Shown here piece by piece: positions 42,038 through 45,825 of a stretch of 46,762 bases of DNA (its first letter is position 1; each line of letters begins with the position of its first letter). Under the pieces are notes generated by a model. The model made no database searches and had not been told where the DNA came from. It worked only from the letters and a program-made list of their open reading frames with translations. A program made the translations under genes and the position numbers. Source of the stretch: Alicyclobacillus contaminans DSM 17975 (lineage in GTDB: Bacteria; Bacillota; Bacilli; Alicyclobacillales; Alicyclobacillaceae); assembly GCF_000429525.1 (NCBI RefSeq), contig NZ_AUCA01000030.1:1-46762 (forward strand), read 5' to 3'.

Positions 42038-42136
42038 TCAACCTTTTGATGTTGTGTACAGGAAATGTATCCCCATCAACAGAAAGACGAGTCCAGCCAA
42101 CATACAGACCATGGCCAATCGCCGCAGCACCCGCAT
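42038..42136 (-). CDS. Possible 32-residue single-span membrane protein
   Basis: A short frame from ATG 42136 to TGA 42038, starting 9 bases after the methyltransferase stop on the same strand. It encodes a basic N-terminus (MRVLRRLAM), a hydrophobic core (VCMLAGLVFLLMGIHFLY) and a short polar end, the classic pattern of small bitopic proteins. AGCGGGG just upstream is a weak ribosome site. No family is recognised. Confidence 0.4.
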   Translation of the reverse strand: MRVLRRLAMVCMLAGLVFLLMGIHFLYTTSKG

Positions 42137-42145
42137 CGCCCCGCT

Positions 42146-43207
42146 TCACCAATCGCACTGTAACACCTGAAACCGTTCTCCCATACCACCGGGCAGTACG
42201 AGACGCTTGAATTCCCCAATGCACTTCGTGTACCCCTCGGTCCCTGACTCGCTCAGCGCCTGCACCACCTCGGTGATGCCGAGTTCCATCAGAAACGTCG
42301 ACTGCGGGTTGAGTACAGCCCGCACAGCGCCGGCCTGTTCTGCGCAGTGCAGCGCAAAATCCCAATGAACATCGGCCGTGATGTCGATGAGTCCGGGATG
42401 TTCGAGGGGACTCGCCACGCGGTGACGCGCGTAGCCCCGAATCGTACCACCGGGACGAACACCGGCCGCCAATTCTCGGCACGTGATGCCGTAGTCGAAG
42501 AATACGGCGCGAAGCGGACGCCCGTATTCGGCACAGCGCGCCATGAACGCCGCCAACTCCGGTGCCAGTTCCCCCACATGGCCTTCTGGTACCGGCAGCC
42601 AGTGCTCGGCGAGGGCTATCCATTCCGATTCAGCCTCGCGCCAGCGCCATTCCAGGGTGTCGTTCGAAGACAGTCCAACAAAGGCGCGTTCCCATCCCTT
42701 TGCCGTGCGCCGCAATCGCTCCACAGGAAAAGCGTCCAACACCTCGTTGGCAACCAGAAACACCGGCTGCGCGACCGAATGGGGCGGTGTCCAATCCACC
42801 GCCCCAACGGACACCCACCGCGCCAATCGAACGCGCTGCTGCTCCGAAAGCAGAGGAGACACTTCAACAATGTGGTAGCGCCACCTCACCGACGCTGGCA
42901 GCTGTTCCGCCAGATGCGCGCAGATTCCAGCCGCCAACCGCCCGTCTCCGGCTCCCACCTCCACCACGTGAAGCGTCGTCGGCTGTCCTATGGTGTCCCA
43001 CCACGAGACAATGCCTCGCGCGACGACGGCCGCGAACAGCGGACTCCCCGCTGCCGTGTAGAAGTCCCCCCGCGGCCCGAATGCCACGTGCGCGGTGTAG
43101 TACCCACCTTGCAGATGGTACAGCGCGTCACGCATGAACTCGGAGAATGGAATGTCCCCTTCGCGCTTCAGGCGCGTCCGCAACATCCATGCGAGATCCT
43201 CGGTCAT
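42146..43207 (-). CDS. MidA-family class I SAM-dependent methyltransferase
   Basis: A 353-residue protein of the MidA/NDUFAF7 (DUF185) family. Early motifs include [18 protein letters not shown] and [16 protein letters not shown]. The SAM loop is [15 protein letters not shown], with [13 protein letters not shown] and FFDYG following. Eukaryotic relatives methylate a complex I subunit on arginine; bacterial substrates are unknown. Its ATG overlaps the clpP stop in an ATGA, so its translation is likely coupled to clpP. Confidence 0.88.
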
Positions 43208-43785
43208 TTGCGCACAATCACATCGTCAATCAAGCCGTATGCCTTCGCGTCCTCCGCGCTCATGAAGAAATCCCTGTCCGTATCCTGTTCGACGCGCTCC
43301 AACGGCTGCCCGCTGCATTCGCTGAGAATTCGATTCAGGCGCTGCCGGGTCTTGATGATGTGTTCCGCGTGAATTTGAATGTCGGAGGCCTGGCCCCGCG
43401 CTCCGCCGAGCGGCTGGTGAATCATCACTTCCGAATTCGGGAGCGCAAACCGCTTGCCTTTTGCACCGGCTGTCAGCAACACCGCGCCCATGCTGGCCGC
43501 CATGCCCACGCAGATGGTGGATACATCCGGTTTGATGTGTTGCATCGTATCGTAGATGGCCAGCCCGGCCGACACGGAACCGCCGGGGCTGTTGATGTAC
43601 ATCTGAATGTCCTTGTCCGGATCGTCCGCGGCCAGGAACAACAGTTGTGCCACGACCGCGTTGGCCACCTCAGCGTCTATCGCGCTGCCGAGAAAGATGA
43701 TTCTGTCCTTGAGCAACCGCGAATAAATGTCGTAGCTGCGTTCCCCGCGCGATGTCTGTTCAATGACAATCGGCACCAGATTCAT
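43204..43785 (-). CDS. clpP: ClpP, ATP-dependent protease proteolytic subunit
   Basis: A 193-residue serine peptidase forming the tetradecameric barrel that works with ClpC, ClpX or ClpE unfoldases. The triad is visible as S98 (GMAASMGA), H123 ([12 protein letters not shown]) and an aspartate in [14 protein letters not shown]. Start ATG 43785 has AAGGAGG 8 bases upstream. The promoter carries a CtsR-type operator, so heat or protein stress should induce it. It overlaps the MidA-type gene downstream. Confidence 0.97.
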
Positions 43786-43849
43786 CGTATGTACCTCCTT
43801 TGCCGTCTCCGTGCGAAACGGCCCATAGCAAATCAGGATTTCCACTCTC

Positions 43850-43878
43850 AGTATGCCGTAGTCCGCACTATTAGTCAA
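43850..43878 (-). promoter_or_regulatory. Sigma-A promoter of clpP
   Basis: On the minus strand, TTGACT (43873-43878) and CATACT (43850-43855) are separated by exactly 17 bases, giving 5/6 and 4/6 matches to the consensus hexamers. The start site would fall near 43843, leaving a leader of about 58 bases. Confidence 0.6.
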
Positions 43879-43895
43879 TAATAGTCAAAGTCAAA
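43873..43895 (+). promoter_or_regulatory. CtsR-type operator overlapping the clpP -35
   Basis: AGTCAAT and AGTCAAA (43873-43879 and 43883-43889) are heptads separated by AAT, fitting the CtsR pattern RGTCAAA-NAN-RGTCAAA with two mismatches. A third GTCAAA follows directly (43890-43895). The site covers the clpP -35 hexamer, as CtsR operators do. Confidence 0.65.
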
Positions 43896-43945
43896 CATGC
43901 GTGGTTTTCGACTGGACATACTACGATGCGAGGAGGGAATGCGCG

Positions 43946-45342: not shown

Positions 45343-45825
45343 ATGATTGCAAAACAAGAACTGCTATTCTTGAAGACCAAAATTCTCCCAGCCGGTGCGG
45401 AGGCTGTGCTCGACTTTCTGGCATCCCGACACCACCAGGTTGAGATGACGAATATCGTTCTCGAAAATGTGCCTTTGTTAATCATCGGGCGGCACGGCAT
45501 GATTGCTCGTATCCCAACCAATGGCGGTGTACAGAAGGTGAGTCAACCGGAGGAAATTCTGGAGCACCTGCGAAACTTCTTTCAGAAGCAGGAAACCCTG
45601 TACCTGTTCACCAATCTGCCGGAACTACCGGTGCCAACCGAAGTGACACAGCTGCTCGAGGAAGTGCAGCAGCGCCACGCGCGCAAGCAGGAACTCCGTC
45701 AAACCATTGACAGAGCCTTGGAGCAACGGGATAAGGCGCTGTTCATGGCCGCTTCCAACGAGCTGAAGCAACTCACATCCGACGTCGACGGGGACAATCG
45801 TTCGCTTCGCCGGATTTTCTCCTAA
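45343..45825 (+). CDS. IDEAL-domain protein
   Basis: A 160-residue protein. The N-terminal 100 residues form a small alpha/beta region I do not recognise (LLFLKTKILPAGAEAVLDFLASRH..., PLLIIGRHGMIARIPTNGG). The C-terminal 50 residues fit the IDEAL domain: a helix, then QTIDRALEQRDKALFMAASNELKQL. IDEAL domains occur in small Firmicutes regulators of unknown activity. AAGGAGG lies 10 bases before ATG 45343. A strong terminator follows, so it is monocistronic. Confidence 0.7.
   Translation: MIAKQELLFLKTKILPAGAEAVLDFLASRHHQVEMTNIVLENVPLLIIGRHGMIARIPTNGGVQKVSQPEEILEHLRNFFQKQETLYLFTNLPELPVPTEVTQLLEEVQQRHARKQELRQTIDRALEQRDKALFMAASNELKQLTSDVDGDNRSLRRIFS

Follow-up and report, generated by a model that had tools for sequence, protein, structure and literature searches.

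Placement of midA and a Microprotein Gene Behind clpP Suggests a Link Between ClpP and Complex I Maturation in Alicyclobacillus contaminans

INTRODUCTION

Why does midA, a gene for an arginine-methyltransferase relative, lie directly behind clpP in Alicyclobacillus contaminans DSM 17975, and which process does the pair serve? CtsR control of clpP is known, and in B. subtilis clpP presumably stands alone. The first-pass annotation of the window (the whole stretch of DNA analyzed here, 46,762 nucleotides of contig NZ_AUCA01000030.1) had assigned midA, through a CtsR-type site before clpP, to the protein-quality-control response. Here we set out the evidence for a different reading, which we consider likely: clpP, midA, and a microprotein gene behind them form a unit tying complex I maturation to ClpP.

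A role of MidA in complex I is already known. In human, Arg85 of NDUFS2 is dimethylated by NDUFAF7 (available part of PMC3829151); the same arginine modification is reported in Paracoccus, whereas E. coli leaves the arginine without it and in Thermus a threonine takes its place (available part of PMC8042128). In prokaryotes, MidA function has so far been inferred in silico only, according to the accessible sections of PMC12455994.

RESULTS

Locus Layout and Promoter

The genes clpP and midA are encoded on the reverse strand (Table 1), and their overlap, noted in the first-pass annotation, is confirmed: the ATG of midA (43207–43205) and the TGA of clpP (43206–43204) share the tetranucleotide ATGA, which likely results in translational coupling. 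The first-pass annotation spanned clpP and midA but not a third gene, which follows midA immediately on its 3′ side.

A promoter scan covering 3.8 kb yielded three matches against 1.2 expected; two of them, overlapping and with 9 of 12 consensus bases each, lie before clpP, and TTGACT-17-CATACT is the only convincing promoter for clpP and midA. A loose −35/−10 pattern is seen upstream of clpP in 37 of 41 regions of the window's family. Scanning of the clpP–midA junction and of the reverse strand within clpP revealed neither promoter-like nor terminator-like sites, in agreement with the earlier statement that midA has no visible promoter of its own; co-induction of midA with clpP would be the natural expectation.

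TABLE 1. Features of the clpP–midA locus; positions are those of the window.
Feature	Coordinates	Strand	Comment
clpP	43785..43204	-	193 aa; TIGR00493 338.9 bits, cut-off 308.6; gene 1 of the proposed operon
midA	43207..42146	-	353 aa; PF02636 1.8e-44; NDUFAF7/COG1565-type SAM methyltransferase, predicted NuoD arginine methyltransferase
ATGA stop/start overlap clpP/midA	43204..43207	-	Read directly from the sequence
Single-span membrane microprotein gene	42136..42038	-	Directly 3′ of midA; 32 aa (ATG 42136) or 30 aa (GTG 42130)
Sigma-70-like promoter TTGACT-17-CATACT of clpP	43850..43878	-	Scan match, 9/12 consensus bases
CtsR-type operator AGTCAATAATAGTCAAA (+ strand reading)	43873..43889	-	1 mismatch to the consensus; overlaps the clpP −35 box

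MidA Co-occurs With NuoD

The product of midA contains the Methyltransf_28 domain (PF02636, 152.5 bits, cut-off 23.3) and is homologous to the PDB entries 4f3n (7.2e-33) and 1zkd (7.3e-27) over nearly the full length, and to 5ztz, an NDUFAF7 homologue (5e-13), over residues 10–128. The SAM-binding glycine motif ExGxGxG is present, with E83, G85, G87, and G89 invariant in 16 aligned sequences. By the Pfam and PDB matches, the description of midA as encoding an arginine-methyltransferase relative stands. The gene resembles NDUFAF7/MidA of human and Dictyostelium (5ztz; COG1565 structures 4f3n and 1zkd) in this homology and in the presence of a putative NuoD substrate with the HRGxE arginine; it differs in that midA here lies behind clpP together with a microprotein gene.

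Of 299 genomes sampled from the class, 141 have a strong MidA match, and exactly these also have a strong match to NuoD; at the thresholds used, the other 158 have neither, and no genome has one without the other. The two genome sets were compiled by hand from two profile-search lists, with thresholds set after viewing the lists (PF02636, E < 1e-20, for MidA; TIGR01962, E < 1e-100, for NuoD). Left out on the MidA side are 23 weak matches with E between 1.0e-7 and 8e-4, presumably other methyltransferases, although 16 exceed the Pfam cut-off; NuoD is absent from all 23 genomes. On the NuoD side, one weak match (G070, 2.7e-7) is left out, and two of the 141 (G064 and G096) are below the TIGR01962 cut-off. 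Such class-wide coincidence may already be known in the literature outside open-licence PMC. Outside the class it breaks: among control genomes, the NuoD model matches 11 (5 over the cut-off), E. coli and Thermus included, and PF02636 only three.

At the level of the window's family, midA is found in 26 of 41 genomes: one genus (g2, 15 genomes) lacks both MidA and NuoD, which are found together in the remaining 15 genera. One genome (G031, 72% complete) has MidA and no NuoD-grade PF00346 match, and the single PF00346 match in g2 (G008), a weaker one in a 545-residue frame, is probably a hydrogenase.

NuoD of the window's genome (L082) carries the sequence GYLHRGTEK, with the target arginine kept, and the arginine of HRGTEK is present at all 28 loci compared, 20 of them from the window's family. 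The window's genome contains one PF02636 match only, namely midA; given the co-occurrence with NuoD and the kept arginine, this sole match is therefore most likely the arginine methyltransferase of complex I, acting on NuoD. DNA or a different protein might be considered as the target, a view put forward for the Wolbachia enzyme, since methylated bases are reported upon expression of Wolbachia midA in E. coli (available part of PMC12455994); however, with NuoD accompanying MidA in 141 of 141 genomes and the arginine never lost at the 28 loci, we regard such a target as very improbable here.

The CtsR-Type Operator Goes With clpP

The CtsR consensus is RGTCAAANANRGTCAAA. The site before clpP (Table 1) is immediately followed by an extra half-heptad, GTCAAAC, at 43890–43896, and ctsR itself is present in the genome (G000:C13:1275–1487, E 1.0e-35); the earlier report of CtsR-like heptads at the only visible promoter is thus borne out. 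At up to three mismatches, four CtsR-like sites are found in the window against 1.96 expected, and of these the clpP site alone comes within one mismatch. In the whole genome, at most one mismatch leaves three sites (before clpP, before ctsR, and near nusA/rimP), and at most two mismatches give 15 sites versus 12 with a reversed control pattern, so that only the closest matches are meaningful. The third of the one-mismatch sites (L029, G000:C11:14762–14778) lies near genes which we take, from their translations, to be rimP and nusA, and may have arisen by chance.

In the window's family, ctsR is present in 40 of 41 genomes (the exception, G034, is 62% complete). Among the 26 genomes with midA, 22 have a site with at most two mismatches in the 300 nt that precede clpP; in the remaining four the best site has 3, 3, 4, and 5 mismatches. 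The best upstream site is equalled by none of 100 shuffles, except at L010 (1), L013 (7), and L016 (47). Genus g2, without midA, retains a site with at most two mismatches before the orthologous clpP in 9 of 15 genomes, the other six having 3–4 mismatches. Outside the family, sites with at most two mismatches precede clpP–midA in the families labeled f37 (7/7), f22 (4/4), f36, and f44; no site better than four mismatches is seen in f14 (four regions), f29 (one), and f2 (one, the check covering one of three genomes, with G266 and G290 left out), i.e., in none of six regions.

The operator persists without midA and the pair persists without the operator, therefore the operator goes with clpP, and midA inherits it. 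This bears on the proposal of the first-pass annotation that midA belongs to protein quality control through CtsR; in such a reading, it would modify proteins under heat stress. The operator-like site, the promoter, the overlap, and ctsR are all real, and the site precedes clpP in most midA-bearing genomes of the family; however, the g2 genomes keep ctsR and, in nine cases, the site with no midA, f14, f29, and f2 keep the pair with no such site, and strong midA matches coincide exactly with NuoD, so that midA tracks complex I and not CtsR, which occurs in nearly all genomes of the family. CtsR control as the reason for the clpP–midA pair is rejected, since site and pair separate, and a role of midA in the heat-stress response seems quite unlikely.

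Upstream, a gene for a YgaP-like membrane protein (PF11127; 43901–44284, forward strand) is divergent from clpP, with the CtsR-type operator in between; the operator could touch both genes.

Linkage of clpP and midA

In all 26 midA-bearing genomes of the window's family, clpP is directly upstream of midA on the same strand. As to the recurrence of the overlap across genomes, a check proposed in the first-pass annotation, the adjacency is thus universal among these genomes, but an overlap of midA start and clpP stop of the window's kind is seen in nine of 26 only; in 24 a start lies within about 35 nt. In the class sample, clpP-linked midA is seen in 35 of 141 midA genomes from eight families, 14 of these genomes being of the window's family; clpP precedes a midA copy in f2 (3/3), f14 (4/4), f22 (4/4), f29 (1/1), f36 (1/1), f37 (7/7), and f44 (1/1), and precedes none of the copies judged from other families. 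Outside the window's family, the survey took the best midA copy of each of the 127 midA genomes, and second midA copies in most genomes that have one (the second PF02636 matches of G069, G143, and G311 were left out); upstream DNA was short at L217 (6 nt, linkage not judged) and L192 (419 nt). A linkage peculiar to one genome is rejected, given the 26 family genomes and seven further families. Among the best 80 midA loci of a wider contig scan (mainly Proteobacteria, with other phyla, and some loci incomplete), clpP and the microprotein gene are near midA in one Alicyclobacillus locus (L232) only.

The linked MidA sequences of the eight families are 28–50% identical to that of the window, and on a quick tree of 117 rows the label "linked" requires two changes, because of which one origin of the linkage is possible. 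The f14, f37, f29, and f44 genomes have a second midA copy that is not clpP-linked. No linkage is visible in 106 of 141 midA genomes, hence it is dispensable for MidA function.

These data may be read in another way, namely, that a housekeeping methyltransferase was placed by chance behind the clpP promoter long ago and has been kept there for adequate expression through coupling, with no tie between ClpP and complex I. The many genomes in which midA shows no clpP linkage agree with this, as does a second clpP of the window's genome, which has no such partner and is located between genes presumed, by their translations, to be trigger-factor-like and clpX-like. Chance placement is, however, at odds with the retention of the linkage in eight families with such diverged MidA sequences, with its retention beside a second, unlinked midA, and with the microprotein gene found directly behind midA in 26 of 35 linked genomes. 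It appears unlikely to us, and we prefer the reading of clpP, midA, and the microprotein gene as a functional unit.

The Microprotein Gene Behind midA

The microprotein has a basic N-terminus and one hydrophobic helix, with 27–32 residues across the family; its homologues follow midA in 19 of 26 genomes of the window's family and also in f14 and f37. A profile of 21 sequences, which matches the window at 42050–42130 (E 5.9e-14, the window's sequence itself being in the profile), was run over the 299 class genomes. It matches 52 genomes at E ≤ 0.01 and 29 at E ≤ 2e-5, a line set at a gap after viewing the list (the next match has 1.4e-4); all 29 are among the 35 genomes with clpP-linked midA. 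Below the line there are 23 genomes, 11 with strong MidA (none of these matches near midA by coordinates) and 12 without.

In the 29 genomes, the microprotein gene is directly behind midA in 26, about 0.8 and 2 kb behind it in two, and elsewhere in one. Fifteen of the 29 contributed no row to the profile, two of them (G022 and G023) already seen earlier; in the other thirteen, the gene is behind clpP-linked midA on the same strand in 12 (10 directly, two at 0.8 and 2 kb), the exception being G038 (L231, G038:C150), where it is beside genes that we take, from their translations, to be tatA/tatC-like, and not beside midA. In G073 and G169, midA and the microprotein gene are separated by other reading frames. 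Downstream of clpP-unlinked midA, the microprotein is found behind none of 117 copies outside the window's family (within the available flanks) and none of three more, and in a phylum sample of 398 genomes it is found, at E ≤ 1e-4, in the window's own genome only. Seven of 26 genomes of the window's family keep midA and lack the microprotein behind it, six of them with clear NuoD and the seventh being the incomplete G031; clpP–midA without the microprotein is also seen in f2 (3/3) and f44 (1/1).

The microprotein gene is coding and under purifying selection: of 21 close pairs, 20 show synonymous codon changes at no less than twice the random expectation, the expectation being crude and the pairs not independent. 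Example pairs have synonymous to other changes of 8:0, 11:1, and 7:1 versus about 2:6, 2:9, and 2:5 expected; the weakest has 4:8 versus 2.5:9.6. A chance frame is rejected, as the mean pairwise amino-acid identity is 0.53 in the true frame versus 0.28 and 0.23 in the others; stops occur in the other two frames in 29 of 35 and one of 35 sequences, while the true frame is free of them as a consequence of how the sequences were identified.

No credible curated Pfam or NCBIfam match was obtained for the 21 members scanned. At E ≤ 1, nine Pfam and five NCBIfam families appear (best E 0.0034 and 7.7e-5, respectively), the window's member staying below the cut-offs; the best NCBIfam family, Ecr, is matched by two of the 21 members only. 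The short bacterial single-span membrane proteins of Ecr are similar to the microprotein in having one hydrophobic helix and a basic N-terminus, although a credible family match is lacking. Neither the clpP–midA linkage nor the microprotein turned up in our searches of open-licence PMC literature, and the microprotein is apparently undescribed.

Proposed Mechanism and Known Parallels

In the preferred reading, clpP, midA, and the microprotein gene would be expressed as one transcript from a CtsR-repressible promoter. MidA would dimethylate the HRGTE arginine of NuoD while complex I assembles, and the microprotein would work with MidA, probably at the membrane where NuoD enters the growing complex. 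With midA and the microprotein gene behind clpP, complex I maturation would follow the ClpP level: upon inactivation of CtsR, the cell would obtain more ClpP, stripping damaged complex I subunits, together with assembly factors for the replacements. Like CtsR-regulated clpP of Bacilli, the locus has a CtsR-type operator over the clpP promoter; unlike it, clpP is here followed by midA and the microprotein gene.

The nearest parallel appears to be mitochondrial ClpXP, which removes worn subunits of the complex I N-module and so allows renewal (available part of PMC7118099); because of this clearance, a link between ClpP and complex I is plausible. Both cases tie ClpP to complex I upkeep; however, as far as the available part of PMC7118099 goes, the mitochondrial one rests on proteolysis experiments and concerns the N-module, whereas ours involves gene linkage and, presumably, NuoD maturation. 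The gene arrangement suggests that the making and the policing of complex I may be linked in some bacteria. A bolder variant, a bacterial complex I repair operon, would have the microprotein bring MidA, or ClpP with an unfoldase, to complex I in the membrane, so that the worn complex is dismantled and freshly methylated NuoD supplied in the same response; we offer it tentatively and consider it rather unlikely.

That MidA serves complex I in this class of Gram-positive bacteria receives strong genomic support from the co-occurrence. In addition, the locus reveals a conserved microprotein of the membrane, for which a partner is predicted, and the mitochondrial ClpP–complex I link may have a bacterial counterpart.

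Neighboring Genes

At 45343–45825 (forward strand), 1.6 kb from clpP, an IDEAL domain protein (PF08858) is encoded, which weakly resembles ReoY proteolytic degradation factors, with 22.8 bits against a cut-off of 182. An open reading frame at the contig edge (46502–46753, reverse strand) reads like the end of what we take to be an IS3-type integrase.
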